A stretch of 64,000 bases of DNA from Shinella daejeonensis (GTDB taxonomy: Bacteria; Pseudomonadota; Alphaproteobacteria; Rhizobiales; Rhizobiaceae). The stretch is from positions 1 through 64,000 of the forward strand of contig NZ_JAHWXY010000012.1 of NCBI RefSeq assembly GCF_024281235.1, written 5' to 3'. Shown here piece after piece: positions 10,225 to 58,320 of the stretch. Both the position numbers and the translations under genes were made by a program. The notes beneath the pieces were generated by a model. The model was not told where the DNA came from and made no database searches. It was given only the letters and a program-made list of their open reading frames with translations. Every line of letters begins with the position of its first letter. Position 1 is the stretch's first letter.

Positions 10225-10252
10225 TCTTTTGCTTAATCAAATTGACAAAAGT
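10225..10252. promoter_or_regulatory. 28-bp palindromic operator upstream of the E1 gene
   Basis: TCTTTTG, 14 bp, CAAAAGT. It matches the shared pattern ACwwwTG-N3-AAT-N2-ATT-N3-CAwwwGT with two mismatches, and the CTTTTG/CAAAAG arms are identical to the copy at 22438-22465. It ends 51 bp before the E1 start codon, where a SorC-type regulator would control transcription. An overlapping dyad, CAATTTG and CAAATTG with a 17-bp spacer, lies at 10214-10244. Confidence 0.65.
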
Positions 10253-10303
10253 ATCAAACTACGGGAGACATAGGGCAGAGACCTTTTCCGCACTGGAGAA
10301 ACC

Positions 10304-12766
10304 ATGCCCAAAGAAATCCTCGTCGATCCCGACACGCTTTTCCAACCGGGCGAACTCACGTTCGCGACCGTCAGGCTCCACGCCTATGCCACGCCTTTCG
10401 AGGACGAACTGGCGGCCTACGGGGCCGATGCGCTGAAGGACATCCTTCGGCACATGCTCATCATTCGCGAATTCGAATCGATGCTCGGCGCCTTCAAGGC
10501 GACAGGCGCGTATCGCGAAATTCCGTTCAACTACAAAGGACCGGCACACCTGTCGATCGGCCAGGAAGGCGCGGCCGTCGGCGCCGCGCTCGGCCTGGAG
10601 CCGGACGACCACATCTTCGGCTCGCACCGCAGCCATGGCGAATTCATCGCCAAGGGTCTCGCAACCATCCAGAAACTCGACGAGGCGGCGCTCGAAGCGA
10701 TCATGCAGGGGCATATGGGCGGCAGCCTTCGGGACGATGTGGCGAAATTCATCGGCGGCGAAGGAAAGCAGCTTGCCGAGAATTTCCTGCTGTTCGGCCT
10801 GCTGGCGGAAATCTTCATGCGGGCCAACGGCTTCAACGGCGGCATGGGCGGCAGCATGCACGCGTTCTTCCCGCCGTTCGGGGCCTATCCCAACAATGCG
10901 ATCGTCGGCGCTTCGGCCGGCATCGCGACCGGCGCGGCACTGCGCAAGAAGCTCAGGAACGAGGGCGGCATCTGCGTGGCCAACGCGGGCGACGGCTCGA
11001 CGGGTTGCGGCCCGGTCTGGGAGGCCATGAACTTCGCCTCGATGGCGCAATTCAGCACCCTGTGGACGGACGCCCGCAAGGGCGGCCTGCCCGTCCTCTT
11101 CTTCTTCAACAACAATTTCTATGCCATGGGCGGCCAGACCATCGGCGAAACGATGGGGTGGGACCGGCTGTCGCGGATCGGCGCGGCCGTCAACAGCGCC
11201 TCGATGCATGCGGAGACCGTCGACGGATCGAACCCGCTGGCGGTCGCCGACGCGGTCCGGCGGAAACGCGCCCTGCTGCTGGACGGCCAGGGCCCTGCCC
11301 TGCTCGATGTCGAATGCTATCGTTCGACCGGCCATTCCACGACGGACGCCAATGTCTATCGCTCCAGAGACGAGCTGAAGCTTTGGGAAAAGCGCGATCC
11401 GATCCTCTGCTTCCAGGGGCTGCTGATCGAAAAGGGCGTCATGGACGAGGACGAGGTCGCGGCGATGCGCGAGCGCGTCGTGGCGACCATCGAGGCGGTC
11501 ACCCGCGCAGCCGTAAACCCCGAGGCCGCGCCGGTCGTCGACGTGCGCAGCGATCCGACGCTGATCGGCAAGCTGATGTTCTCCAATGAGGAGATCCCGG
11601 TTCCCTCGACCCCCGCCCCGCTGCTTCAGGAGGTCGGGAAATCCGCCGCCCTGCGGCAGCTTGGACGCAAGGCGCGGTTCGGGCTCAACGAAAGCGGCGA
11701 GCCGCTTTCCGGCATGCGGGCGATCACCCTGCGCGACGGCCTGACCGAGGCCACCCTCCATCATATGCTCAACGATCCGTCGTTGATCGCCTATGGCGAG
11801 GAGTGCCGGGAGTGGGGCGGCGCGTTCGGCGTCTATCGCGGGCTTTCCGATATCCTGCCCTATGACCGGCTGTTCAATTCGCCGATTTCCGAAGCGGCGA
11901 TCGTCGCCACCGCCGTCGGCTACGCGCTTGAGGGAGGAAGGGCCCTCGTCGAACTGATGTATGGCGACTTCATCGGCCGCGCCGGCGATGAAATCTTCAA
12001 CCAGATGGCGAAATGGCGCTCGATGTCGAACGGCATCCTCAAGATGCCCGTCGTCCTGCGCTGCTCCGTGGGCAGCAAATACGGCGCGCAGCACTCCCAG
12101 GACTGGACGGCGCTGATCGCCCATATCCCGGGCCTCAAGGTCGTCTATCCGGCAACGCCCTATGACGCCAAGGGGCTTCTGGCCTCGGCGCTCTCCAGCG
12201 ATGACCCGGTGGTCTTCTTCGAAAGCCAGCGGCTCTACGATACGGTCGAACAGTTCCGCGCCGAAGGCGTGCCGGCCGACTATTACCGCATCCCGCTGGG
12301 AGAACCCGACGTCAAGCGCGCCGGCGAAGACGTGACGATCCTGACGATCGGCCCGTCGCTTTACCCCGCCCTCAAGGCCGCCGACGAAATGCAGGAACTC
12401 CACGGCCTTTCCGCCGAGATCATCGACGCCCGCTCGCTTGTCCCCTTCAACTACGACAAGGTGATCGAGTCCGTGAAGAAAACCGGACATCTCCTGATCG
12501 TTTCGGAGGCCTCGGAGCGGGGAAGCTTCGCGATGACGCTATCGTCCAACATGACGCGCTTCGCCTATGAGCATCTCAAGGCCGCGCCGCGTGTCCTTGG
12601 ATCCCCGAACTGGATCGTTCCCGGCGCCGAGATGGAATCCACCTATTTCCCGCAGGCCGGAGACATCATCGATATCGTCACATCGGATTTCTATCCCGCG
12701 AGGAAAGCCAACCGCCGCGGCATCCGCGATTGGGACGATATCGAACTGGCGCGCAACTCCCTCTAG
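10304..12766 (+). CDS. Thiamine diphosphate-dependent dehydrogenase E1, alpha-beta fusion (acetoin/2-oxoacid type)
   Basis: An 820-residue fusion of the E1 alpha and beta chains of the acetoin / 2-oxoacid dehydrogenase family. The alpha half (about 1-460) has GSHRSHGEFIAKG, GMGGSMHAF and the thiamine diphosphate motif GDGSTG (229-234) with a distal NN at 269-270. The beta half (about 470 on) has YGEECREWGGAFGVYRGL and RCSVGSKYGAQHSQDW. Such enzymes bind a keto substrate through thiamine diphosphate and hand the acyl or hydroxyalkyl unit to a lipoyl group. The next two genes give a lipoyl domain and an AcoC-like hydrolase, which favours the acetoin-dehydrogenase class. No E3 gene is in the cluster. 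The start ATG at 10304 follows CACTGGAGAAACC. Confidence 0.88.
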   Translation: MPKEILVDPDTLFQPGELTFATVRLHAYATPFEDELAAYGADALKDILRHMLIIREFESMLGAFKATGAYREIPFNYKGPAHLSIGQEGAAVGAALGLEPDDHIFGSHRSHGEFIAKGLATIQKLDEAALEAIMQGHMGGSLRDDVAKFIGGEGKQLAENFLLFGLLAEIFMRANGFNGGMGGSMHAFFPPFGAYPNNAIVGASAGIATGAALRKKLRNEGGICVANAGDGSTGCGPVWEAMNFASMAQFSTLWTDARKGGLPVLFFFNNNFYAMGGQTIGETMGWDRLSRIGAAVNSASMHAETVDGSNPLAVADAVRRKRALLLDGQGPALLDVECYRSTGHSTTDANVYRSRDELKLWEKRDPILCFQGLLIEKGVMDEDEVAAMRERVVATIEAVTRAAVNPEAAPVVDVRSDPTLIGKLMFSNEEIPVPSTPAPLLQEVGKSAALRQLGRKARFGLNESGEPLSGMRAITLRDGLTEATLHHMLNDPSLIAYGEECREWGGAFGVYRGLSDILPYDRLFNSPISEAAIVATAVGYALEGGRALVELMYGDFIGRAGDEIFNQMAKWRSMSNGILKMPVVLRCSVGSKYGAQHSQDWTALIAHIPGLKVVYPATPYDAKGLLASALSSDDPVVFFESQRLYDTVEQFRAEGVPADYYRIPLGEPDVKRAGEDVTILTIGPSLYPALKAADEMQELHGLSAEIIDARSLVPFNYDKVIESVKKTGHLLIVSEASERGSFAMTLSSNMTRFAYEHLKAAPRVLGSPNWIVPGAEMESTYFPQAGDIIDIVTSDFYPARKANRRGIRDWDDIELARNSL

Positions 12767-12773
12767 AACCAAT

Positions 12774-12795
12774 CCGGTGAAATCCGGCTCACCGG
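12774..12795 (+). terminator. Weak hairpin after the E1 gene
   Basis: CCGGTGA (12774-12780) and TCACCGG (12789-12795) form a 7-bp stem with an 8-nt loop just after the E1 stop codon. There is no T-run, so it may attenuate or stabilise the transcript between E1 and the lipoyl gene rather than terminate it. Confidence 0.35.
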
Positions 12796-12798
12796 AAT

Positions 12799-12864
12799 GG
12801 CTATAATATATTGTCTTCACCGCATGATCCGACGCCGAAGCGATCTCGCTTCGGCTGGAAATGC
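12799..12864 (+). repeat. 66-bp inverted repeat, copy 1
   Basis: This segment matches the reverse complement of 16595-16660 at 55 of 66 positions by eye. Its right part contains a near-perfect hairpin (GCCGAAGCGA, TC, TCGCTTCGGC) and its left part an AT-rich TAATATATTGT. The two copies bracket the lipoyl, hydrolase, SorC and kinase genes. It lies between E1 and the lipoyl gene. Confidence 0.75.
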
Positions 12865-12884
12865 GCCAGTTTCAGGAACAGACC

Positions 12885-13124
12885 ATGACGACACCAATTC
12901 TGATGCCGCAACTCGGCAATGAAATCACCGAAGCGGAAGTCACCGAATGGCTGAAGGCCGAAGGTGACGAAGTGACCGAGGGCGACCTGATCGTCGTCAT
13001 CACCACCACGAAAATGAGCCTGGAGATCGAAGCGCCCGCCACGGGCGTCCTGAAATCCATCGATGTGCCGGAGGGCGAGCTTGCCGAAGTCGGCGCGACA
13101 CTCGCCACGATCGGACAGCCATGA
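12885..13124 (+). CDS. Stand-alone lipoyl-domain protein (E2-type carrier)
   Basis: A 79-residue protein that is almost entirely one biotinyl/lipoyl domain. Its lipoylation site is the Lys in VITTTKMSLEIEAPATG. ATG at 12885 follows AGGAAC at 12874-12879; an upstream ATG at 12861 lies inside the repeat and lacks a good ribosome-binding site. It would carry the acyl group made by the E1 enzyme. In AcoC proteins of some acetoin dehydrogenases the lipoyl domain is fused to an alpha/beta hydrolase; here the hydrolase is the next gene, overlapping by 4 bp (ATGA). The two therefore look like a split AcoC. Confidence 0.88.
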   Translation: MTTPILMPQLGNEITEAEVTEWLKAEGDEVTEGDLIVVITTTKMSLEIEAPATGVLKSIDVPEGELAEVGATLATIGQP

Positions 13125-13897
13125 CGGACGCGACGCAAAGCAACCCGGGGCGCGCGACGCTGCATCGTCTCGGCGGCGAGGACGGCGCGCCCGATCTGCT
13201 GCTGATCCACGGCTTTGCCTCCGACCGGTTCGCCTGGTCGGCGACGGCGCCGGACTTCTTCAGGACGCATCGGGTGTGGGCCGTCGAACTGCCCGGGCAC
13301 ACCGCCGCGCCGATCGACGCCGGCTCCGGCGATCCGGCCGCGATGGCGCTGGCCGTCATCGCGGCGATCGCCCCGCTTCAGGCCCCGATGACGATCGTCG
13401 GCCATTCGCTGGGCGGCGCGGTCGCCGTCGGAATCGCCGCCCGGCGGCCCGACCTCGTCTCCTCCCTGGTCCTCATCGCGCCGGCGGGCGTGGGCGGGAA
13501 AACCCGTTCCGATTTCCTGGAGAATTTCCCGGCCCTCGAAACCGCGGACGACGCCCGGCCGCTGCTGGAGCAACTGGTCGCCCGCCCGAAGCTGATCGGC
13601 CCGCAGATGGTTCAATACGTGCTGGGCTTCCTCGATGCGCCGGGTCGCCGGGAGGCGCTGCGCCGGATCGGCGACAGGCTTTCGGAAATCGGCGACGTCG
13701 GCATTCCGGCCGGCGTTCCGACCGTCGCGGTCTGGGGCGACGCCGACGCGATCAACGTCCCCTCGCCCCGGCTGGCGGAGATCTTCGGCGACCGCCTGCA
13801 TCTTCTGCAAGGCGTCGGCCACATGCCCCATGTGGAACAGGCCCGCGCGACCAACGCCATCATCCGCGCCGCCCTGAAGCCCGCCGATCCGGCCTAG
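13121..13897 (+). CDS. Alpha/beta hydrolase, AcoC C-terminal-domain-like
   Basis: A 258-residue alpha/beta hydrolase-fold protein: HGFASDRFAW for the oxyanion region, nucleophile elbow GHSLGGAV, acid-bearing VWGDADAINVP and catalytic-His region GVGHMPHVE. It overlaps the lipoyl gene by 4 bp, so the two are translationally coupled. The same domain forms the C-terminal part of AcoC-type E2 proteins, where it probably serves in acyl transfer. An independent esterase role cannot be excluded, but the context strongly suggests work with the E1 and lipoyl proteins. Confidence 0.85.
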   Translation: MTDATQSNPGRATLHRLGGEDGAPDLLLIHGFASDRFAWSATAPDFFRTHRVWAVELPGHTAAPIDAGSGDPAAMALAVIAAIAPLQAPMTIVGHSLGGAVAVGIAARRPDLVSSLVLIAPAGVGGKTRSDFLENFPALETADDARPLLEQLVARPKLIGPQMVQYVLGFLDAPGRREALRRIGDRLSEIGDVGIPAGVPTVAVWGDADAINVPSPRLAEIFGDRLHLLQGVGHMPHVEQARATNAIIRAALKPADPA

Positions 13898-14022
13898 CGC
13901 CTCGCTGTGAAAACGGGATTACCAGACATGCGCCATCCCATTGTTTTCCGAGTGGTTCCGGCCCGGCCGCGCCTTCGAAACCTTCGGTCGCACGCGTCGA
14001 TCACCGCGCAGCAGGAGCAGCC

Positions 14023-14994
14023 GTGAGACCGCGATCCGACAACGCGAAAAGCTCCGGCACGGCCGCCCTTCGCGTGCGCGCCGCCTGGCTTTACCACGTC
14101 TATGGCCTGACCCAGAGCGAGGTGGCCGACCGGCTCGAAATAAGCCGCGCCACGACGATCCGCCTTCTCGACGAGGCGAAAAAGCGCAACGAGGTGACGG
14201 TCTGGGTCACCAGCGACGCCAATGGATGCGCCGAACTGTCCCTGGCGGTGCAGGCGGCCTTCGGTCTGCGTCGGGTCATCGTCGTTCCAAGCGCCGGCCG
14301 CAACATGAGCCCGCACAAGGCCGTGGGCGCAGCACTCGGGCGCTTTCTGAGCGAACATGTCGTGGACGGAATGACCGTGGGCGTCGGCTGGGGCAGAACC
14401 CTCAACGCGTCCCTCGACACCTTCCAGCCGATGCGGCGGAACGGTGTCAGCGTCGTCTCGCTGCTGGGCGGCTCGATAAATCCGACGCAAATCAATCCGG
14501 TGGAATATTCCTGGCGGCTTTCCAGCCTCATGGGTGCCGACTGCCTGCTTTTCCTGTCGCCGCTGATCGTCGATTCCCTCGATACGAAAAGACGCCTTCT
14601 CGACAAATGCGGCCTCGACCGGATCGATGCGATCGCCGCGCAACTGGACCTGGCGGTCGTCAGTTGCGGCAGTGTCGATAGCGGTGGCACCTCGCTTGCC
14701 CTTGAGCATATCACCGCACCGGAAATCGCAAGCCTGCGCAAGCAGGGCTGCGTCGGCGATATTTTGTGCAATTTCCTGGACAGGCAGGGGCGGACCGTTG
14801 CGAATTCGATAAGCGAGCGCGTGATGGCCGTCGATCTGGACGTCATGTCCACCGCCCGCCACATCGTGCTTGCAACGGGAGGCGCGGACCGCGCTGCGGC
14901 GCTCGTCGCGGGCATACGCCGCCTGAAACCGGCAACGCTGATCACCGACGAGGCCGCCGCCCGCACCATGCTCACCTTGCAGGACGAGGACTGA
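14023..14994 (+). CDS. SorC/DeoR-type sugar-binding transcriptional regulator (1)
   Basis: A 323-residue SorC-family protein. The N-terminal helix-turn-helix is LTQSEVADRLEISRATTIRL, and the C-terminal sugar-phosphate-binding domain has VGVGWGRTLNASLDTF and VSLLGGSINPTQINPVEYSW. Start GTG at 14023 follows GCAGGAGCAGCC; the open frame upstream overlaps the hydrolase gene in another frame. It is closely similar to the second SorC gene at 16653-17609. SorC proteins usually sense a phosphorylated sugar and bind long palindromes, which fits the 28-bp repeats in this region. It lies 87 bp upstream of the kinase gene and is probably co-transcribed with it. Confidence 0.88.
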   Translation: MRPRSDNAKSSGTAALRVRAAWLYHVYGLTQSEVADRLEISRATTIRLLDEAKKRNEVTVWVTSDANGCAELSLAVQAAFGLRRVIVVPSAGRNMSPHKAVGAALGRFLSEHVVDGMTVGVGWGRTLNASLDTFQPMRRNGVSVVSLLGGSINPTQINPVEYSWRLSSLMGADCLLFLSPLIVDSLDTKRRLLDKCGLDRIDAIAAQLDLAVVSCGSVDSGGTSLALEHITAPEIASLRKQGCVGDILCNFLDRQGRTVANSISERVMAVDLDVMSTARHIVLATGGADRAAALVAGIRRLKPATLITDEAAARTMLTLQDED

Positions 14995-15081
14995 GCCGCA
15001 TCAGGCGGGGCGGCTCGATCGTGACGCCTGTACGCGCATTACCGATCGCCCGGAAAGCGATCCATCGGGGAGGAACACATC

Positions 15082-16566
15082 ATGTATATCGGCCTGGATC
15101 TGGGGACTTCGGCGATGAAGGCATTGCTGGTCGACGACGAGGAACGCCTTGTCGCATCGGCGACGATCCCGGTCGCCACAAACCATCTCCAGCAGGGGTG
15201 GGCCGAGCAACACCCGCTTGTCTGGATCGAAGCCGCAAAGCGCGCCCTTGCGAAAATCCGCCAGGCCGCGCCCGGCGACTATTCGAAGGCCCGCGCCATC
15301 GGACTATCGGGACAGATGCACAGCCTCGTCGTGCTCGACCGTACGAAAGCCGCAATCCGTCCGGCGATCCTGTGGAACGACGTTCGCGGGGACGAGTGGT
15401 GCCGGAAAGTGGTCGCCGACCATCCGGACGTCTCGGCGATCACCGGCGTGCGGCCGATGCCGAGCTTCACCGCGGCAAAGCTTGCATGGCTGCGCGAGAA
15501 CGAGGCAAAGGCGTTTTCCGAAATCGCCCATATCCTTCTGCCGAAGGATTTCGTCCGCCTCTGGCTCACCGGAGAGCTGGCGACCGACGCCTGCGATGCC
15601 GGCGGAACCCAGCTCTTCCATCAGGAGAAACGGCGCTGGTCGCGGGACGTCTGCTCGATCCTCGGTATCGATGAGGCGGTGCTGGCGCCCGTATTGGACG
15701 GCAGCGAGATTGCAGGATACCTGCGGCCCGCCGTGGCGGCCGAACTCGGACTGGATAAGATCGCGGTGATCTGCGGCGGCGGCGATGCGGCGACAAGTTC
15801 GCTCGGGGCCGGTTGCGCGGCCGCCGGCCGCTCCATGCTTTCGCTTGGAACCGGCGCCGTCTATCTCACCATGCAGGACCGTTTCCGCCCCGCGTCGAGC
15901 GACAGCGTGCACAATTTCGCCCATTCGCTGCCGGGGCGCTGGTATCATATGGCGGCGCTCCTGAACTGCGGCAGCGCGCTCGAATGGATTTGCGCGGTCA
16001 CGGGCGGGCAAGCGCCGGCGGAAGCGCTCGGCGAACTTGAACGGCAGGCGGCCTCCCCCTCTCCCGGCCCGTCCCCGGTGATGTTCCTGCCGTATCTCGA
16101 CGGCAACCGGACGCCGCATTGCGACGCCGGCGTGCGAGGCGGCTTTTTCGGGCTGGAACGCGCCACCTCGAAGACCGATCTCGTTCAGGCGGTGATCGAG
16201 GGCATCACCTTCGCGCTTGCCGACGCCGATCAGGTGCTGCTCGATTCCGGCAATACGATCGGCGCGCCGATCCTGATCGGCGGCGGTGCGAAAAGCCTTT
16301 ACTGGACGCGCCTGATCGCGACGGTTTTCCAGCGGCCGCTGAAACGCGTTGTCGCGGCCGAGACCGGCTCGGCGCTGGGCGCGACGCGACTGGCAATGAT
16401 CGGCCTCAACAAGGCCGATCCCGACGCCGTGGCGACGGAACCGCCAACCGAAACGGTGGAGCCGGACAGCCGGCTGGTTTCGGCCTATCAGGACAGGCTT
16501 GCGGTCTTCCGGCAGATGTATTCGTCGGCCGACCTTTACGCGAGAGCGGGCGGCGGCGCGCGATAG
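15082..16566 (+). CDS. FGGY-family carbohydrate kinase (xylulokinase-like)
   Basis: A 494-residue FGGY kinase of the XylB branch. It has the N-terminal phosphate loop DLGTSAMKALLVD, the substrate-side motif GLSGQMHSLVVLD and the C-terminal FGGY-type region IGAPILIGGGAKSLYWTRL. Xylulokinase and its relatives phosphorylate ketoses such as D-xylulose at C5 and can accept deoxy analogues. The start ATG at 15082 follows GGGAGGAACACATC. In this cluster it would act on the ketose made by the polyol dehydrogenase, giving the substrate for the E1 enzyme. The exact sugar is not known. Confidence 0.9.
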   Translation: MYIGLDLGTSAMKALLVDDEERLVASATIPVATNHLQQGWAEQHPLVWIEAAKRALAKIRQAAPGDYSKARAIGLSGQMHSLVVLDRTKAAIRPAILWNDVRGDEWCRKVVADHPDVSAITGVRPMPSFTAAKLAWLRENEAKAFSEIAHILLPKDFVRLWLTGELATDACDAGGTQLFHQEKRRWSRDVCSILGIDEAVLAPVLDGSEIAGYLRPAVAAELGLDKIAVICGGGDAATSSLGAGCAAAGRSMLSLGTGAVYLTMQDRFRPASSDSVHNFAHSLPGRWYHMAALLNCGSALEWICAVTGGQAPAEALGELERQAASPSPGPSPVMFLPYLDGNRTPHCDAGVRGGFFGLERATSKTDLVQAVIEGITFALADADQVLLDSGNTIGAPILIGGGAKSLYWTRLIATVFQRPLKRVVAAETGSALGATRLAMIGLNKADPDAVATEPPTETVEPDSRLVSAYQDRLAVFRQMYSSADLYARAGGGAR

Positions 16567-16594
16567 GCCCCCGTCCCGGCGGAACGGCGCCAGG

Positions 16595-16660
16595 GCATCT
16601 CCAGCCGAAGCGAGACTACCTCGGCGTCGGATAATGCTGTAAAAACAATATATTACAGCA
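16595..16660 (-). repeat. 66-bp inverted repeat, copy 2
   Basis: This is the reverse-complement partner of 12799-12864. It lies between the convergent kinase and second SorC genes and runs over the SorC stop codon (16653-16655). Its right end adds a local dyad, TGCTGTAA (16634-16641) and TTACAGCA (16653-16660), that could act as a weak bidirectional transcription stop. Confidence 0.75.
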
Positions 16661-17609
16661 ATTCCCGCGCCGCGGCTTCATCCGTCACGAGCGTGTGGCA
16701 TTTCGTGCGCAGCATGGTCGCCCGGATCGCGGTGGCGCGGGCCTTTCCGCCCGAGGCGAGGATGATATGCTTCGCCTTCGAGACGACATCGAGATCGACC
16801 GACATGACACGATCATGGATCGGATGGTCGACGGTCCGGCCGTTCTCGTCGAGGAACTGGCAGAGCGCATCGGAAACCGCACCTGCGGCGGTCAACGACG
16901 CCTGATCCTCCTTCGACAGGAAATTCCTCGACAGCGAACTGCCGGCGGCGCCGATATCGCCGCAACTGATGATCGCCAGATCGAGCGTCTGCGCGGTCTC
17001 GAACAGCTTTTGCAGGCCGCATTTTTCGATCAGCCGTTTCTTGGTGTCATGGGAATCGACAACCAGCGGCGCGAGCAGCAGGAGGCAATCCGCGCCGACC
17101 GAGCTTGCGACCCTCCAGGAATATTCGATGGGATTGATCGGCGTGGCTTCCAGCAGGCCGCCGAGCAGCGACACCACCTGCACGTTCTGGCGGATGGCGG
17201 GCTTGAACGTGGTCAGGGAGGCGTTCAGCGTCCGGCCCCAACCGACGCCGATGCTGCTATTGTCGGCGATGACGTCAGACAGGAACCTGCCGAGGGCGGC
17301 GCCGACATCGCGCGCGGTGTCCTCGGCATTTCCTTCCCCCGGCACGACGATCGCTTCGTCCAGCCCGTATTTCTCTTCCAGTCGCAGTTCGAGTTCCGTG
17401 CATTCGTCCGGAGCCTCGTTGATCCAGATCTGGACCTCGCCCCGCTTCTGCGCCTCGTCCAGCATGCGGATGATCGTGGATCGGCTGATCCCCAGCGTCT
17501 CCGCGATGTCCTTCTGCGTCAGCCCCCTGTTGTAATAGAGCCATGCGGCGCGGATACGGAGGGACCTGGTGTCCAGCAGACCGGGATTACTTCGAGTGAG
17601 CTTGGCCAA
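16653..17609 (-). CDS. SorC/DeoR-type sugar-binding transcriptional regulator (2)
   Basis: A 318-residue paralogue of the SorC protein at 14023-14994, with the same plan: helix-turn-helix LTQKDIAETLGISRSTIIRM and sugar-binding domain IGVGWGRTLNASLTTF and VSLLGGLLEATPINPIEYSW. The start is uncertain. TTG at 17609, six bases after GGAG, gives an N-terminus aligned with the paralogue; the frame is open further upstream but that extension is low in similarity. It is convergent with the kinase gene and sits just downstream of the SDR gene on the same strand. The two regulators may respond to different intermediates or bind as hetero-oligomers. Confidence 0.85.
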   Translation of the reverse strand: MAKLTRSNPGLLDTRSLRIRAAWLYYNRGLTQKDIAETLGISRSTIIRMLDEAQKRGEVQIWINEAPDECTELELRLEEKYGLDEAIVVPGEGNAEDTARDVGAALGRFLSDVIADNSSIGVGWGRTLNASLTTFKPAIRQNVQVVSLLGGLLEATPINPIEYSWRVASSVGADCLLLLAPLVVDSHDTKKRLIEKCGLQKLFETAQTLDLAIISCGDIGAAGSSLSRNFLSKEDQASLTAAGAVSDALCQFLDENGRTVDHPIHDRVMSVDLDVVSKAKHIILASGGKARATAIRATMLRTKCHTLVTDEAAARELL

Positions 17610-17782
17610 CGAATACTCCAAAACAGGCTTCCGGGAACGGCACGCCGCCGCGACAGGCCGTCGGCGGCGGGACATGCAGCCAGACAGGCCGTCGATGTCG
17701 TGGAACCCCCACGGCAACCTATCGCGGCTTGCCCGATGGAACAAGCGCGCCGCATGCCGGCGGAAGACGGTTCCGCCGGCGG

Positions 17783-18553
17783 TCAACTCATCCAGTTGCC
17801 GCCGTCGACATTGAGCGTCTGGGCGACGACATAGGCGGAATCGTCCGAGGCGAGGAAAACGGCCGGGCCGACGAAGTCCGAGGTCAATCCCATGCGCCCG
17901 AAGGGAACGGCCTTGCCGACACGTTTCTTCTTCTCACCCGGCGGCAACCCTTCGTATTTCGCAAAAAGCGCGTCGACCCGGTCCCACATCGGCGTATCGA
18001 TGACCCCCGGCGCGATCGCGTTCACCCGGATGCCATCGCGGATCAGTTCGAGCGCCATCGACTGCGTGATGCTGATGACCGCCGCCTTCGCCGCGCAATA
18101 GAGGATGACGTTGGCTTCGCCGCGCCGGCCCGCCTGCGAGGACATATTGATCACCACGCCGCCCTGCCCGCGGGCGCGCATCCGCTCCGCGACCGCCTGG
18201 GTCATGAAGATCAGGCCGCCGACATTGACGTCGAACTGGCGGCGATACATCTCGACGGTGATCTCGTCGAGCGGAGCCATGTCGAACACGCCCGCATTGT
18301 TCACGAGAATATCGATCCGTCCGAAGTGCGCCTCCGCCGCGTCGACGGCCCGGCCGATGGACTCCCTGTCCCGCACGTCGAGCGACAGGGCCAGCGCCTT
18401 CTCTCCGAGCGCGGAGGCCAGCGCCAGGCCCGCCTCCTTCTCGACGTCGGCGATCACCACATTGGCACCCTCTGCCGCATAGGCCCTGACGATCGCCTCG
18501 CCGATGCCTCTGGCGCCGCCCGTGACGATGGCCACCTTCCCCTCAAGCTTCAT
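17783..18553 (-). CDS. Short-chain dehydrogenase, sorbitol dehydrogenase (SmoS/PolS)-like
   Basis: A 256-residue classical SDR. It shows NAD-binding TGGARGIG (11-18), NNAG (85-88), catalytic Ser138/139, Tyr152 and Lys156 (YCAAK). The C-terminal part, with YEGLPPGEKKKRVGKAVPFG and a terminal VDGGNWMS, closely resembles alphaproteobacterial sorbitol/galactitol dehydrogenases SmoS and PolS. The start ATG at 18553 opens directly into MKLEGKVAIVTGG; the longer frame to 18622 was rejected. It probably oxidises a polyol to a ketose with NAD. It is divergent from a second SDR, with a shared operator palindrome between them. Confidence 0.87.
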   Translation of the reverse strand: MKLEGKVAIVTGGARGIGEAIVRAYAAEGANVVIADVEKEAGLALASALGEKALALSLDVRDRESIGRAVDAAEAHFGRIDILVNNAGVFDMAPLDEITVEMYRRQFDVNVGGLIFMTQAVAERMRARGQGGVVINMSSQAGRRGEANVILYCAAKAAVISITQSMALELIRDGIRVNAIAPGVIDTPMWDRVDALFAKYEGLPPGEKKKRVGKAVPFGRMGLTSDFVGPAVFLASDDSAYVVAQTLNVDGGNWMS

Positions 18554-18618
18554 GTGCCGCTCCCGCGCTGGTCTGTCGATGACGCCATTTCTAATCCTCG
18601 CGAATCGACCGGTCAACG

Positions 18619-18646
18619 ACAAATGTCTAATTGATTTATCATATGT
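18619..18646. promoter_or_regulatory. 28-bp palindromic operator between the divergent SDR genes
   Basis: ACAAATG, 14 bp, CATATGT, with AAT and ATT at the symmetric inner positions. It lies 66 bp upstream of the SmoS-like gene and 104 bp upstream of the second SDR gene, so it could control both. It matches the pattern of the sites at 10225, 22438 and 22493. Confidence 0.65.
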
Positions 18647-18750
18647 TGCACACTAAACTCCCTTGCGCCGCCCGCCCATCGTCTTGACGACGAAGCGTCG
18701 GGCGGCCGGATCCCCCGTTACCAACCCGTTTTCCCCGAGGAGGAGAATGC

Positions 18751-19530
18751 ATGTCCATCAGCAACGCCCTGTCGCCTTTCCGAAAAGACCTGTTCCAGGG
18801 CAAGACCGTGCTCGTCTCCGGCGCCACGAGCGGTATCGGCATCGAGCTTGCACGGGGGTTTGCGGCCCTGTCCGCCACCGTCATCGCGACCGGAACGTCT
18901 AGGGAGAAGCTGGATCGCGAGAGCGGCCGGCCGGAAAATGCCGGGATCGAATTCCGCCAACTGGACGTGCGCGACGAAAGCACCGTGAATGCGCTCATGT
19001 CGGACCTCGACCGTCTCGACGTGCTGGTGAATTGCGCCGGCATCAGCCATGGAGGCGCCGAACTCGACGACATGACCAGATTCGCCGATGTGATCGACGT
19101 AAACCTCGTCGCCATGATGCGCATGGCGCAGGCCGGCCGCAAGCTGTTGTCCGCCTCCCGGGGAACGATCATCAACATCTCGTCGATGCTGAGCTACCTC
19201 GTCGAGGGGAAATCCAACGTGGTGGGCTATACCGCCAGCAAGACGGGCGTGCTCGGGCTGACGCGGGCTCTTGCGCATTCCTACGGGCAGGACGGCATCC
19301 GCGTGAACGCGATCTCGCCGGGATACCACAAGACGGACATGACGAAGCCGCTGTGGAGCAGGCCGGAAAGCGAGGCGCTGGTCGCCGGCCGAACGGCGCT
19401 CCAGCGCTGGGGCACCACCGCCGATCTGGTTGGTTATGCGGTGTTTCTCGCTTCGCCGGCGGCGGAATATATCACGGCGACCGATCTTCCAGTCGATGGC
19501 GGCTACGTCGTCGGCAATGTCGTCTTCTGA
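18751..19530 (+). CDS. Short-chain dehydrogenase/reductase
   Basis: A 259-residue classical SDR with cofactor loop SGATSGIG (23-30), NCAG in place of the usual NNAG (95-98), catalytic Ser144/145, Tyr160 and Lys164 (YTASK) and a C-terminal DLPVDGGYVVG. A strong ribosome-binding site, AGGAGGAG, precedes ATG at 18751. It is distinct from the divergent SmoS-like enzyme, so the pathway may need two oxidoreductase steps or an alternative substrate isomer. The substrate is not recognisable from the sequence. Confidence 0.85.
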   Translation: MSISNALSPFRKDLFQGKTVLVSGATSGIGIELARGFAALSATVIATGTSREKLDRESGRPENAGIEFRQLDVRDESTVNALMSDLDRLDVLVNCAGISHGGAELDDMTRFADVIDVNLVAMMRMAQAGRKLLSASRGTIINISSMLSYLVEGKSNVVGYTASKTGVLGLTRALAHSYGQDGIRVNAISPGYHKTDMTKPLWSRPESEALVAGRTALQRWGTTADLVGYAVFLASPAAEYITATDLPVDGGYVVGNVVF

Positions 19531-19542
19531 CCCGGCGAAGGA

Positions 19543-19570
19543 AACCGGCCGGGTCATGGCCCGGCCGGTT
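19543..19570. terminator. Hairpin between convergent SDR and permease genes
   Basis: AACCGGCCGGG and CCCGGCCGGTT form a perfect 11-bp stem with a 6-nt loop, 13 bp after the SDR stop codon and 23 bp after the permease stop codon on the other strand. There is no clear T-run on either strand, but the position and symmetry suit a bidirectional terminator. Confidence 0.6.
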
Positions 19571-19592
19571 CCGATCCACAAGCGACCCGATA

Positions 19593-20615
19593 TCAGGTGC
19601 GCGCGCCGGCCACCCGGTAGCGGTCGAGGGCCACCGCGCCGATGATGACGAACCCCTTGATGATGAACTGCCAGATATCGCTGACGCCGGTCAGGATGAG
19701 ACCGTTGGACAGGGCGGCGATGATCATCGCCCCGACGAGCGTTCCCCAGATCGAGCCCACGCCTCCGACAAAGCTCGTGCCGCCGAGGATGACGGCAGCG
19801 ATCGCGTCCAGTTCGTAGGACTGGCCCAGTTGAAGGCCGTTGGCGGCGTAGAGCCTGGCCGCCGACATCGCCCCGCCAAGGCCGGCAAGCAGGCCGGAAA
19901 CGCCGTAAACGAAAAGCAGGACCCACCAGACCTTGATGCCGGATAGCCGCGCGGCATCCGGATTTCCCCCCACCGCATAGATCCGCACGCCAAGCACGGT
20001 CCGCCGCAGGACGATCCAGGACACGACGACCGTCGCCAGCGCGATGACCATGAGCCACGGCACGCCGAACAGTGTCCCGTTGCCGATGAACGCGAACGAA
20101 AGGTCCGAGTTGAAGACGGTGTTATCACTGCCGAGGAAACGGGCGAAACCTCGCACCGCCGTCATCGAACCCAGCGTAACGATGAACGGAGGGAGCTTCG
20201 CGAAGGCGATCAGCGCGCCATTGACCGCGCCGAGCGCCAGACCGATCAGCAGGGCCGCCGGCAATCCCAGATGCTCCAGGCCGGGCATCAGCGACACCAG
20301 CAGGGCGGACATGGCCGATGCGGCGAGGATGGAGCCGACGGAAAGATCGATGCCGCCGGTCAGAATGACGAATGTCATGCCTGCGGCGAGCACCGTGTTG
20401 ATCGAGGCCTGCTGGGCGACGATGGACAGGTTTCCGATGGAAAGAAACCGGCCGGCCGCCCATGACAGCTCGCCCGTCTCCACATAGGAAGAGAGCACCT
20501 GGAAGAGCAATACGATCAGGATAAGGACGGGAAGCATGCCCGCCGCCTGGATCGTCGCCCCGACCGAGCGCTTCCGGATTTCAATCTGTTGTGTCGAAGT
20601 GTCTAGCGGTGTCAT
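19593..20615 (-). CDS. Sugar ABC transporter permease (RbsC-like)
   Basis: A 340-residue membrane protein of the ribose/xylose ABC permease family. It has about nine hydrophobic segments and the family signatures GGIDLSVGSILAASAMSALL, GLALGAVNGALIAFAKLPPF and YAVGGNPDAARLSG. It is the second gene after the ATPase gene on the minus strand, separated by 58 bp. Together with the divergent binding protein it forms a CUT2-type importer, a class that usually carries pentoses, hexoses or polyols without phosphorylation. Confidence 0.92.
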   Translation of the reverse strand: MTPLDTSTQQIEIRKRSVGATIQAAGMLPVLILIVLLFQVLSSYVETGELSWAAGRFLSIGNLSIVAQQASINTVLAAGMTFVILTGGIDLSVGSILAASAMSALLVSLMPGLEHLGLPAALLIGLALGAVNGALIAFAKLPPFIVTLGSMTAVRGFARFLGSDNTVFNSDLSFAFIGNGTLFGVPWLMVIALATVVVSWIVLRRTVLGVRIYAVGGNPDAARLSGIKVWWVLLFVYGVSGLLAGLGGAMSAARLYAANGLQLGQSYELDAIAAVILGGTSFVGGVGSIWGTLVGAMIIAALSNGLILTGVSDIWQFIIKGFVIIGAVALDRYRVAGART

Positions 20616-20673
20616 GTCGTTCCCATCGGATATGAATTCAGGCTAGCCTCATGATCGAGGTCCGGCGGCAAGT

Positions 20674-22179
20674 TCAGGCGGCGGTGGCGATCGCCATGAT
20701 GTTTTCCTGCGTGATTTCGGAGCCCTTGAGCGACCCGGCGACGCGCCCCTCGCGCATGACGATCACGCGGTCGCAAATCCCCACGATTTCCGCCAGTTCG
20801 GAGGAGATGACGGCCACCGCCATTCCCGATTTCGCGACTTCGTCGATAAGCTTGTAGATTTCGGACTTGGCGCCGATATCCACGCCGCGCGTCGGCTCAT
20901 CGAGGATCAGGAAGCGCGGGCCCGTTTCGAGCAGGCGCGCCAGAAGGACCTTCTGCTGGTTTCCGCCCGACAGGCCGCCGACGGCGGCATCGGAAGAGGC
21001 CGCCTTGATGTTGAGGGCGGCCGTCGCCTTCCGGCTGCGCCGGCGCGCCATGATCCGATCGAGGAATCCGAATTTCGAATCCTTCTCGATCACCCCGAGA
21101 TTGAGATTCTCCGAGACGCTCATGTCGAGGAACAGGCCAAGCTGCTTTCTATCCTCGGTGAGATAGGCGATGCCGGCTTTCTGCGCGTCGAGAGGGGTAC
21201 GGATATCGAGTGCCCGGCCCTCCAGTTCTATGGTTCCGCCCGCGCGGTGGTCGGCGCCATAGACGAGGCGGGCAAGTTCCGTCCGTCCCGCCCCGACCAG
21301 CCCGGCGATACCAAGCACTTCGCCATGGTGAACATCGAAGCTGCATCCATGGATCCGCCGTCCGTCGCCGACATCGCGGACGCGGACCGCAACCGTTCCC
21401 GGCCCCCCGCCGACGGAATGGGCCTTCTTGTAGAAAGAGCCGAGGTCGCGGCCGACCATCATCCGCACGACCGTTTCAGGCGCGATTTCCGGGCGATCGA
21501 GCGTTCCGACATACGCACCGTCCCGCAGGACCGAGACCCGGTCGGCGAGTTCGTAGACTTCGCTCATGCGATGGCTGATATATACGATCGCCATGCCCTC
21601 GGAGCGCAACTGACGCATCAGCTGGAACAACCGCTCCGTCTCCCGCTCCGACAGCGTGGTGGTCGGTTCGTCCATCACCAGTATCCGGCATTTGAAGTTC
21701 AGCGCGCGGGCGATCTCCACGAGTTGCCGCTCGGCGATCGAAAGCCGGGCGACCTTGTCACGGGGACCGAAGCTCGCGTTGAGCCGCCTCAGGATGTCGG
21801 CAGCCCCCGCTTCCATCGCCGAACGGCTGACGAAGCGATTTCGCGCGATCTCCCGGCCGAGATAGATGTTCTCGGCAACGGTCAGGTTGGGCGCCAGCGA
21901 CAGCTCCTGGTAGATGATGGAGATGCCGAGGGTCTGGGCCGACTGGGGACCGGTGATCGAAACGCGGTTTCGGTCGATGAAGATCGCGGAACCCGGATCG
22001 GGCAGATAGGCTCCCGACAGGATTTTCATGAGCGTGGACTTGCCCGCTCCATTTTCCCCCATGAGGGCATGGATTTCCCCCAGGCGAACATCGAGCGAGA
22101 CATTCGACAATGCCTGTATTCGCCCAAAGGTCTTGGAGACATTCTCCATCCGCAGATATGCGGTGTCGGCAGTGGTCAT
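20674..22179 (-). CDS. Sugar ABC transporter ATP-binding protein (RbsA-like)
   Basis: A 501-residue protein with two ABC domains, as in RbsA, XylG and MglA. The first has Walker [11 protein letters not shown]-loop [20 protein letters not shown] and Walker B ILVMDEP. The second has the degenerate Walker [10 protein letters not shown] and signature LSGGNQQKV. The start is ATG at 22179 after AAGGTGATCCCG; the open frame extends to 22425 without similarity. It leads a two-gene operon with the permease and is divergent from the binding-protein gene, sharing the operator-containing control region. Confidence 0.92.
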
Positions 22180-22437
22180 CGGGATCACCTTGTCAGATAA
22201 GGCTTCTATCGGGCTTCGCGGCTTTCCGTTCCGCGACGGAACCCGGCGGCCAGCGCCTCCCGGCCTTTCGATGCGACACGAAAAACAGATGCGGATGTCA
22301 TAGGCGCTCACTCCTCCAGCGACACGACGCAGGACCCCGCCTCTCATCCCGCCATCAGTCCTCCCCGATAGCGGATCCTTGAGGCCGGCCCTTCGCCCGA
22401 TGACGAAACTATCCGTCAGCGGCAATCACTGTCAACG

Positions 22438-22465
22438 ACTTTTGATGAATAGATTTTACAAAAGT
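22438..22465. promoter_or_regulatory. 28-bp palindromic operator A of the ABC importer
   Basis: ACTTTTG, 14 bp, CAAAAGT, with perfect 7-bp arms. The arms match those of the site upstream of the E1 gene except for the first base. Its centre is 55 bp from that of operator B, so both sites face nearly the same side of the helix, as expected for a tetrameric SorC-type protein. Confidence 0.68.
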
Positions 22466-22492
22466 TGCATTTCACGCAATTCATCAATTGAA

Positions 22493-22520
22493 ACATTTGT
22501 CGATTAGATTACGCATATGT
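22493..22520. promoter_or_regulatory. 28-bp palindromic operator B of the ABC importer
   Basis: ACATTTG, 14 bp, CATATGT, with inner ATT/ATT symmetry. It ends one base before the TTGACT element of the likely promoter of the binding-protein gene, so binding there should affect that promoter directly. Confidence 0.65.
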
Positions 22521-22612
22521 CTTGACTCTCTGTGACCAGCGCCCATAGCTTGCGCACGGGAGTCCGGACAGGCCGCATCCTGCGGGCCTGCCAAGCCAGG
22601 AGGAGCCAGCCC

Positions 22613-23548
22613 ATGAAACTGAAATTGCTTTTCGCCGCAGCGCTCGCAGCCACCGCCATCGTCTCGCCAGCGCATGCGAAGACCCTGTCCAAGATCGGCG
22701 TTTCCGTCGGCTCGCTGGGCAATCCCTTCTTCACCGCCATTTCCCGTGGCGTCGAAACGGAAGCGAAAAAGATCAACCCGGACGTCAAGGTCACCGTGGT
22801 CGCCTCCGACTACGACCTGTCGAAGCAGATGCAGCAGATCGACAGCTTCGTGGCGGCGGGTGTCGATTTCATCGTTCTTGACGCGGTCGATCCGCGCGCC
22901 CTTGGCGCCGCCATCAAGCGCGCCCAGGCGGCCGGCATCTTCGTCGTCGGCGTCGACGAGGAAGCGGAAGGCGAAGACGCCATCTTCATGACGGACAATG
23001 TCGCAGCCGGAGAAATGTCCTGCCAGTACATCGTCGACCGGCTCAACGGCGAAGGCAATGTGGTGATCATCAACGGTCCGCAGGTTTCGTCCGTCGTCGC
23101 CCGGATCAAGGGCTGCAACCAGGCATTCGAGAAAGCCCCCGGCATCAAGGTGCTTTCCAGCGATCAGGACGGAAAGGGATCGCGCGACGGCGGCCTTGCG
23201 GTCATGCAGGCCCTCATGGTGCGCTTCCCGAAGATCGACGCGGTTTTCGGCATCAACGACCCCTCCTCGATCGGCGCCTCGCTGGCGATGCGGCAGGTCA
23301 ATCGCGACGACTTCTTCATCACCAGCGTCGACGGCTCCCCCGACGTCGAGGAGGCGATCAAGGACCCGGCCACGAAGATCCACGCCTCGGCATCCCAGGA
23401 CCCTTACGAAATGGCGGTGCGGGCCGTGCGGGCAGGAAACGACCTGTTGAACGGCAAGCAGCCGGAACAGGTGAAGACACTGCTCACACCGGTTCTCATC
23501 ACCCCGGACAATGTGTCCGGTCACAAGGGCTGGAACGCCGCCGAGTAA
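22613..23548 (+). CDS. Sugar ABC transporter substrate-binding protein (RbsB-like)
   Basis: A 311-residue periplasmic sugar-binding protein of the ribose-binding (Peripla_BP_4) family. The signal peptide MKLKLLFAAALAATAIVSPA is followed by SKIGVSVGSLGNPFFTAISR; the ligand-binding ADYDL-type strand appears as ASDYDLSKQMQQIDSFVAAG. The start is ATG at 22613 behind CCAGGAGGAGCC; the open frame to 22532 was rejected. It delivers the substrate to the RbsA/RbsC-like pair encoded divergently. The sequence does not name the sugar. Confidence 0.92.
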   Translation: MKLKLLFAAALAATAIVSPAHAKTLSKIGVSVGSLGNPFFTAISRGVETEAKKINPDVKVTVVASDYDLSKQMQQIDSFVAAGVDFIVLDAVDPRALGAAIKRAQAAGIFVVGVDEEAEGEDAIFMTDNVAAGEMSCQYIVDRLNGEGNVVIINGPQVSSVVARIKGCNQAFEKAPGIKVLSSDQDGKGSRDGGLAVMQALMVRFPKIDAVFGINDPSSIGASLAMRQVNRDDFFITSVDGSPDVEEAIKDPATKIHASASQDPYEMAVRAVRAGNDLLNGKQPEQVKTLLTPVLITPDNVSGHKGWNAAE

Positions 23549-56394: not shown

Positions 56395-58320
56395 ATGAGA
56401 GTGACACAAGCCCCCGCCACACCCCTGCTCGACAAGGTGCATTATCCCGCCGACCTGAAGAAGCTGGAGGACCGCGACCTGCCGCAACTTGCCGCCGAAC
56501 TGCGCGCCGAGATGGTCGACGCGGTCTCGCGCACGGGCGGGCATCTGGGCGCCGGCCTCGGCGTGGTGGAACTTACCATCGCCATCCACAAGGTCTTCGA
56601 CACGCCGCAAGACCGGCTGATCTTCGACGTCGGCCACCAGTGCTATCCGCACAAGATCCTGACCGGCCGGCGCGACCGCATCCGCACGCTGCGCCAGGAA
56701 AACGGCCTTTCGGGCTTCACCCGCCGGGCCGAGAGCGAATACGACCCCTTCGGCGCGGCCCATTCCTCGACCTCGATCTCCGCCGGTCTCGGCATGGCGG
56801 TGGCGACCGATCTGGCCGGCGAAAACCGCAACGTCATCGCGGTGATCGGCGACGGGGCGATGTCGGCCGGCATGGCCTATGAAGCGCTGAACAACGCCGG
56901 CGCGCTCGACGCGCGGCTCATCGTCATCCTCAACGACAACGACATGTCGATCGCCCCGCCGACCGGGGCGATGAGCGCCTATCTGGCGCGGCTGGCCTCC
57001 GGCCGCACCTATATGGGTTTCCGGGAATTCGGCAAGAAGCTGACGGCCTATCTCGGCAAGACGGTCGACCGGGCGATCACCCGCGCCGTCGAACATGCGC
57101 GCGGCTATGTCACCGGCGGCACGCTGTTCGAGGAGATGGGCTTCTACCACATCGGCCCGATCGACGGTCATTCCTTCGAGCACCTGCTTCCCGTGCTGCG
57201 CAACGTGCGCGACAATTCCAAAGGGCCGGTGCTGATCCACGTCGTCACCCAGAAGGGCAAGGGCTATCCGCCGGCCGAAGCGGCGGCCGACAAATATCAT
57301 GGCGTCAACACGTTCGACGTCATCACCGGCGCGCAGGCCAAGGCCAAGCCCAATGCGCCGGCCTATACCGCCGTCTTCGCCGATGCGCTGGTGCAGGAGG
57401 CCGGCTTCGACGAGAAGATCGTCGGCGTCACCGCCGCCATGCCGTCCGGCACCGGCCTCGACAAGCTCGCCAACGCCTATCCGATGCGCACCTTCGACGT
57501 CGGCATCGCCGAGCAGCATGCCGTGACCTTTGCCGCCGGCCTCGCCTCGGAGGGCTACAAGCCGTTCTGCGCGCTCTACTCCACCTTCCTGCAACGCGGC
57601 TACGACCAGGTCGTGCACGACGTGGCGATCCAGGGGCTGCCGGTGCGCTTTCCCATCGACCGCGCCGGCTTCGTCGGCGCGGACGGGCCGACGCACGCCG
57701 GCTCCTTCGACACGACCTATCTCGCCACCCTCCCCGGCTTCGTGGTGATGGCCGCCGCCGACGAGGCGGAACTGAAGCACATGGTGCGCACCGCCGCCGC
57801 CTATGACGAAGGCCCGATCTCCTTTCGCTATCCGCGCGGCGAAGGGGTCGGCGTCGAGATGCCGGAACGCGGCGAAATCCTCGAGATCGGCCGGGGCCGC
57901 ATCATCCGGCAGGGCACCCGGGTCGCACTGCTCTCCTTCGGCACACGGCTTGCCGACTGTCTGCTGGCGGCCGAGGATCTCGATGCGGCGGGACTGTCGA
58001 CGACCGTCGCCGACGCGCGTTTCGCCAAGCCGCTCGACCACGACCTGATCCGCCAGCTCGCCCGCCACCACGACGTGCTGATCACCATCGAGGAAGGCGC
58101 CATCGGCGGCTTTGGCAGCCATGTGCTGCAATTCCTCGCGCTCGAAGGGCTGCTCGATCAGGGATTGAAGGTGCGGCCGATGGTTCTGCCGGACCTCTGG
58201 ATGGAACAGGCCAAGCCCGAGGCGATGTATGCCCGGGCCGGCCTCGACCGCGCCGGCATCGTTTCCACCGTCTTCCAGGCGCTCGGCCAGAAAGCGGTGG
58301 GCGTGGGCGCGGCAGGCTGA
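56395..58320 (+). CDS. dxs: 1-deoxy-D-xylulose-5-phosphate synthase
   Basis: A 641-residue thiamine diphosphate enzyme that joins pyruvate and glyceraldehyde 3-phosphate at the start of the MEP isoprenoid pathway. It has [37 protein letters not shown], the cofactor motif [18 protein letters not shown] and the catalytic Glu in [16 protein letters not shown]. The start at 56395 is taken from family length. It precedes tlyA, as in other rhizobia. Confidence 0.97.

Follow-up and report, generated by a model that had tools for sequence, protein, structure and literature searches.

Why should a sugar kinase be encoded together with a complex of the acetoin-dehydrogenase type, and what would such a complex cleave? 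The question is raised by a gene cluster at positions 10,225-23,548 of a 64,000-nt stretch of Shinella daejeonensis DNA (contig NZ_JAHWXY010000012.1; below, the window is this whole stretch). The original prediction, made from the sequence alone, listed in this region an importer, a SmoS/PolS-like short-chain dehydrogenase (SDR), a second SDR, a XylB-like kinase, two SorC regulators, a fused E1 component, a lipoyl protein and an AcoC-like hydrolase, and all of them were recovered in place. Comparison of related loci shows that the pairing of this E1 with sugar kinases is not due to chance. We propose, giving this reading about even chances, that the cluster encodes a transketolase-like system by which a ketose phosphate would be cleaved oxidatively, with coupling to lipoate and coenzyme A (CoA); the substrate is most likely a 1-deoxyketose phosphate, with acetyl-CoA as the product. 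The genes are as follows.

10304-12766, plus strand: fused E1 alpha/beta, 820 amino acids (aa), thiamine pyrophosphate (TPP)-dependent, acetoin-type (Pfam E1_dh, Transket_pyr, Transketolase_C)
12885-13124, plus strand: stand-alone lipoyl carrier, 79 aa (PF00364; best NCBIfam match AcoC, 70 bits)
13121-13897, plus strand: AcoC-like alpha/beta hydrolase, likely acting in acyl transfer or release (best NCBIfam match AcoC NF011457, 164 bits, cut-off 307)
13987-14994, plus strand: SorC/DeoR-type sugar-binding regulator 1, start uncertain (PF04198, 157.8 bits)
15082-16566, plus strand: FGGY kinase of the E1-linked xylulokinase branch (XylB TIGR01312, 471.7 bits, cut-off 380.25)
16653-17621, minus strand: SorC/DeoR-type sugar-binding regulator 2, start uncertain (PF04198, 192 bits)
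17783-18553, minus strand: SDR1, L-iditol 2-dehydrogenase of the SmoS/PolS type (NF005472, 400.1 bits, cut-off 338)
18751-19530, plus strand: SDR2, short-chain dehydrogenase (adh_short families)
19593-20615, minus strand: permease of a ribose-type (CUT2) importer (RbsC-like, 223 bits, under the 398-bit cut-off)
about 20674-22179, minus strand: CUT2 importer ATPase with two ABC domains, start inferred (PF00005, two stretches)
about 22613-23548, plus strand: CUT2 importer substrate-binding protein, start inferred (PF13407; RbsB-like, 118.6 bits, under the 337-bit cut-off)

The genes of the E1, carrier, hydrolase, first SorC regulator and FGGY kinase form one co-directional run (10304-16566), with a four-base overlap between the carrier and hydrolase genes. 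The kinase gene is followed on the minus strand by those of the second SorC regulator and SDR1, from which SDR2 diverges, and the importer genes, for a single permease and ATPase and, in divergent orientation, the binding protein, are split over both strands. Several starts in the list of open reading frames (ORFs) were too long, and new ones were set by eye from the family matches. No NCBIfam model among the best 25 of 228 matches to SDR2 exceeded its cut-off, and in the other loci examined SDR2 matched generic SDRs only (26-36%).

Pairing of the fused E1 with sugar kinases

The search of genome_contigs yielded 490 relatives of the fused E1, of which the best 80 were fetched for comparison of loci. 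They comprise 61 proteobacterial loci (L011-L070, L076) and 19 loci of distant relatives (Clostridia, Chloroflexi, Verrucomicrobia and others), and 20 acetoin-dehydrogenase loci drawn from the same order served as the comparison set. A PfkB or FGGY kinase is encoded within 2.5 kb of the E1 in 34 of the 61 proteobacterial loci and within 5 kb in 36 (PfkB in 30, FGGY in 8, both in 2); among the 40 proteobacterial loci with full 5-kb flanks, 22 have a kinase within this distance. Pfam searches in nine E1-bearing genomes (about 45.6 Mb) gave 79 FGGY and 137 PfkB matches, that is, approximately 0.06-0.07 expected per span. The kinase state changes 15-17 times on the E1 tree, where FGGY and PfkB are interleaved; L092 and L094 (duplicates), L046 (E1 truncated at the contig end) and L081 were excluded from the tree, and seven of its 81 rows, with short flanks, carry no kinase state.

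In contrast, a kinase is found in one of the 20 acetoin-dehydrogenase loci, and a SorC gene also in one (Fisher p = 1.1e-5 for the kinase at 5 kb, kinship uncorrected; since the E1 loci are related to each other, the linkage p-values are indicative only). The sole PfkB kinase among the acetoin-type controls is encoded in L133, alongside an RbsD-like protein (70%) and one resembling aldo-keto reductases.

The other components recur as well: within 5 kb of the E1, the carrier is encoded in 59, the hydrolase in 53 and SorC in 36 of the 61 proteobacterial loci. The original prediction would have been refuted had the genes never been combined in homologous clusters, but they are: E1, lipoyl carrier, hydrolase, SorC and FGGY kinase occur together in L014, L016, L022, L036, L066 (the same as L092, with the kinase in pieces) and L093, and also in L091 with the kinase 9 kb away. 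In L092 (Rhizobium sp. RCAM05350) the E1 and the FGGY kinase (14001-16462 and 17672-19137) are each annotated in two pieces, and this cluster may be decaying or may contain assembly frameshifts.

The fused E1 is scarce: evenly drawn samples contain it, at E <= 1e-150, in 2 of 199 family genomes and in 1 of 385 class genomes (own genome counted). It occurs on 16 plasmid records at E <= 1e-100. Plasmids of Agrobacterium and Rhizobium carry the module. Among the best 30 of 106 plasmid records matching the kinase, four exceed 45% identity, and all four also encode the E1. On pRL8 the genes of E1, carrier, hydrolase, PfkB kinase and SorC are accompanied by those of an epimerase and an importer; in the available part of PMC3333776, which describes pea-rhizosphere genes on pRL8, the E1 region is not named among them. 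The setting of the Shinella cluster looks chromosomal, because smc, thrC and dxs are present in the same window. The dxs gene (56395-58317), about 44 kb from the cluster E1, is probably unrelated to it.

Features of the complex and of the kinases

The E1 scores below the NCBIfam cut-offs for pyruvate dehydrogenase (PDH) E1 (226 vs 321 and 199 vs 393.85 bits), and further below those for 1-deoxyxylulose 5-phosphate (DXP) synthase and transketolase (60.6 vs 465.95 and 70.3 vs 488 bits). Its beta half is closer to the AcoB-like proteins of the 20 acetoin loci (35-42%) than to the PDH beta chain of the same genome (33.5%), while the alpha half does not discriminate between them (27-33% vs 28%). 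His82, His344, Glu530 and His597, invariant in all 36 aligned fused E1 sequences, match residues that we take to be the catalytic histidines and glutamate of PDH and branched-chain 2-oxo acid dehydrogenase (BCKDH). The structure model of E1, a confident one (predicted local distance difference score pLDDT 88, predicted template modelling score pTM 0.90), has as its nearest solved folds the beta chains of PDH and BCKDH, followed by transketolases and 2-oxoglutarate-type E1.

Arg502 is present in 36 of 36 fused E1 proteins, at a site where 16 of the 20 AcoB proteins have Asp and the other 4 have Gly, and Lys592 is present in at least 34 of 36, at a site that is Gly in all 20 AcoB proteins. Both, like Arg512 and Arg643, are to be read as differences at the sequence level only. 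Moreover, E1 has approximately 40 extra residues (around 122-165) without a counterpart in the alignment with PDH alpha.

Conserved residues are seen in the carrier and hydrolase as well, Lys43 in 50 of 50 aligned carrier ORFs and Ser96, Asp209 and His234 in 55 of 55 aligned hydrolase ORFs (both alignments include the window genes and two duplicate records). The two proteins, encoded by separate genes, both stay under the cut-off of the AcoC equivalog.

As for the kinases, the seven E1-linked FGGY proteins, from this genome, Agrobacterium (where the kinase gene is 9 kb from the E1), Kaistia, Pleomorphomonas, Aureimonas, Bauldia and a Hyphomicrobiales metagenome-assembled genome, group in a single clade (99/98.8 support) that is sister to ordinary XylB. 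The ordinary group includes a second copy from the Shinella genome itself, 40.7% identical to the cluster kinase. The motif MHS is found in 7 of 7 E1-linked FGGY kinases, compared to MHG in all 8 ordinary XylB proteins kept as controls (of the original nine, L186, an antisense frame, was dropped). The cluster kinase passes the XylB cut-off, yet lies outside the ordinary XylB group and lacks MHG. E1-linked PfkB kinases mostly fall together in a 33-row group within which two other genes are nested, and the seven that were scored are all fructokinase-like, under the fructokinase cut-off. Both XylB and fructokinase phosphorylate the far end of a ketose.

Proposed cleavage and its alternatives

We infer the following order of steps, substrate, products and role of the hydrolase. 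The importer would take up a polyol or a sugar, SDR1 would oxidise the polyol at C2 to a 2-ketose, and the FGGY kinase would phosphorylate the far end of the ketose (C5 or C6). The fused E1 with TPP would attack the C2 carbonyl and cut the C2-C3 bond as in transketolase, oxidising the two-carbon unit onto the small lipoyl carrier and not onto another sugar. The AcoC-like hydrolase would then transfer the acyl group to CoA, or free it, the carrier would be reoxidised by the dihydrolipoamide dehydrogenase of the cell, and the second product would be glyceraldehyde 3-phosphate or erythrose 4-phosphate, an aldose phosphate in either case. By indirect arguments, given below, the substrate is most likely a 1-deoxyketose phosphate, and the acyl product would accordingly be acetyl-CoA.

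Cleavage of a ketose phosphate at C2-C3 is suggested by the linkage of E1 to ketose-type kinases, by the acetoin-type complex and by transaldolase neighbours, all of which fit it. A transaldolase gene lies 0.13-0.8 kb from the E1 in three loci (L018, L030, L046) and at a distance of 6 kb in L023; none was found in the 20 acetoin loci. In L046 an L-iditol 2-dehydrogenase gene (60% to SDR1) stands between those of transaldolase and E1, and the PfkB kinase is encoded 1.9 kb from the E1. In L014 a transketolase gene follows that of the FGGY kinase, and L091 has the gene of lipoyl synthase LipA 2.1 kb from the E1, together with a mannitol-dehydrogenase-family gene and importers. A precedent for the proposed chemistry is provided by PMC3424233, according to which purified PDH makes 1-deoxyxylulose from pyruvate and glyceraldehyde, aceE mutations restore the DXP supply via an unidentified reaction, and 1-deoxyxylulose is phosphorylated by XylB.

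The original prediction is supported in part: its route, from a polyol through a ketose and a ketose phosphate to an acyl-CoA and an aldose phosphate, is the best fit to these data. Several observations weigh against it. No kinase was detected within 5 kb of the E1 in 25 of the 61 proteobacterial loci, and no alpha/beta hydrolase in 8; a close relative of SDR1 (422 bits) adjoins the E1 in one other locus only, the above-mentioned L046. The FGGY genes 3.7-7.6 kb from the E1 in L012, L027, L028, L035, L040 and L070 fall outside the linked clade, so that two of the 36 kinase-positive loci (L027, L035) depend on a kinase of another kind, and the kinase of L050 groups with ordinary ribokinases. The kinase queries were derived from E1 loci, which biases the counts towards the E1 set (the Pfam density estimate is free of this bias). 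The transaldolase may be a housekeeping gene, because the genomes of L018, L030 and L046 hold no second copy; besides, L018 and L030 are close together on the E1 tree. Finally, 18 of the 19 distant relatives have no kinase (the sole exception is the Chloroflexi locus L073), and E2-like genes accompany 14 of these 19 and E3-like genes 13 (identified on L082), so that phosphate use need not extend to the entire E1 family. Lipoate ligase is common to 3 of the 19 distant loci. In L074, L080 and L084, clostridial E2-E3-E1 clusters come after genes of a dehydrogenase similar to IolM and a fusion of a RhaD-like aldolase with an SDR (those of L074 were scored, under both cut-offs; the others were assigned by similarity).

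Among the alternatives, the same complex could act on an ordinary or rare ketose phosphate and yield glycolyl-CoA or glycolate, with the hydrolase serving as a thioesterase, for which its Ser-Asp-His triad is intact. This would suit the kinase, which scores as a xylulokinase, and SDR1, which belongs with the hexitol dehydrogenases of the iditol/sorbitol kind; likewise, the pRL8 cluster, with an epimerase and a kinase and no dehydrogenase beside the E1, fits a sugar that is a ketose from the outset or becomes one by isomerisation. Near the E1, a 2-hydroxyacid dehydrogenase gene is present in L052 and L057 (L019, L039 and L053 give weaker matches), and a GlcD-like gene in L054 and L057. However, the latter is found in only 2 of the 61 loci (the glycolyl-handling genes being represented in the search by this one query), xylulose 5-phosphate or fructose 6-phosphate require no such enzyme, and the kinase branch has diverged from ordinary XylB. 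We regard this alternative as rather unlikely; the absence of a recurrent glycolate gene favours an acetyl unit, and hence a 1-deoxyketose phosphate.

Cleavage by E1 ahead of any phosphorylation is also unlikely. The substrate would then be an alpha-hydroxyketone without phosphate, either acetoin or a free 1-deoxyketose, and the kinase would act on the aldose that is set free or on a different intermediate. The affinity of the E1 beta half, which is nearest to acetoin AcoB among the proteins compared, and that of the carrier and hydrolase to AcoC agree with such a substrate, as do the loci without a nearby kinase. Still, the linked kinases are of the ketose type and not of the aldose type, save for L050, and 19 of the 20 acetoin loci manage without a kinase.

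That E1 is an alternative dehydrogenase of pyruvate or another 2-oxo acid, co-regulated with sugar genes by happenstance, seems improbable. The alignment of its histidines with those of PDH, the partial matches to PDH E1 models and the distant relatives adjoining PDH-type E2 and E3 point in this direction, but the scores below the PDH cut-offs and the AcoC-type carrier and hydrolase point away from it, and the linkage to kinases would be left unexplained.

A normal polyol operon (SmoS plus XylB) adjoining an acetoin module by chance is already disfavoured and very improbable. Such operons exist: a 13.4-kb stretch of Rhodovulum pRGUI02 resembles the cluster in having a plain L-iditol 2-dehydrogenase, a xylulokinase and a sugar importer, along with a mannitol dehydrogenase, but it differs in having no E1, carrier, hydrolase or SorC, and its kinase has the ordinary MHG. 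A chance neighbourhood is at odds with the E1-linked kinase clade in several genera, the recurrent linkage and the co-occurrence on plasmids. An AI-2-like phosphorylated dione, with E1 in place of the LsrF step of the generally known Lsr biochemistry, can be dismissed almost entirely: the importer type, the SorC regulators (LsrR being the second match) and the FGGY kinase recall the Lsr layout, but the binding protein scores 118.6 bits with RbsB vs 38.2 with LsrB, and the kinase 472 bits with XylB vs 79 with LsrK.

The oxidative pathway of 6-deoxyhexoses, the end products of which are pyruvate and lactate, was considered and rejected, as it needs no E1. Relatives of 2,4-didehydro-3-deoxy-L-rhamnonate hydrolase, enolase-family and amidohydrolase_2 genes occur in L018, L054 and L061, and the hydrolase relative is found in just these 3 of the 61 loci (in L061 with 402 bits at a cut-off of 500).

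Relation to known systems

Returning to the oxidative cleavage of a ketose phosphate, one of its closest known counterparts is the acetoin dehydrogenase complex (AcoA/AcoB/AcoC), which shares with the cluster an alpha/beta-type TPP-dependent E1, a lipoyl carrier, a Ser-Asp-His AcoC-like hydrolase and an acyl product expected on CoA. Here, however, E1 is fused into a single chain, AcoC is split into two genes, and a sugar kinase, SorC and a sugar importer stand alongside. Transketolase and DXP synthase have in common with it the TPP chemistry at the C2-C3 bond of a ketose, DXP synthase forming the bond that the cluster E1 may break, but by score this E1 belongs to a different family, and lipoate would replace the sugar or pyruvate partner. 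Phosphoketolase also converts a ketose phosphate to a two-carbon unit and an aldose phosphate, yielding acetyl phosphate with no oxidation, whereas the proposed E1 route would be oxidative, with an acyl-CoA product.

In agreement with the original prediction, which knew of no pathway with this gene set, none is described among the literature matches listed (narrow terms, subscription journals mostly not covered). The component families are known; their combination and the proposed reaction appear new. As a tentative generalisation, to which we give somewhat less than an even chance, the loci may represent a widespread undescribed module for converting (1-deoxy)ketose phosphates to acetyl-CoA and an aldose phosphate, which would be the oxidative counterpart of transketolase, dependent on lipoate and acylating CoA, with exchangeable importers and dehydrogenases and kinases of two unrelated families. 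The gene group itself is present in many soil and marine bacteria.

If the proposal is true, a machine of the 2-oxo-acid-dehydrogenase type acts directly in sugar catabolism, where a single oxidative step would lead from ketose phosphates to acetyl-CoA, and genes now labelled as acetoin or 2-oxo acid dehydrogenases would be renamed. Moreover, 1-deoxy sugars and deoxy-polyols could then be catabolised by this route. Some such compounds are natural; rhamnitol, for example, occurs in apples according to PMC7912530.

Elsewhere in the window, positions 813-1868 encode a 352-aa protein resembling the dimethylsulfoniopropionate (DMSP) lyase DddP (331 bits, under the 600-bit cut-off).

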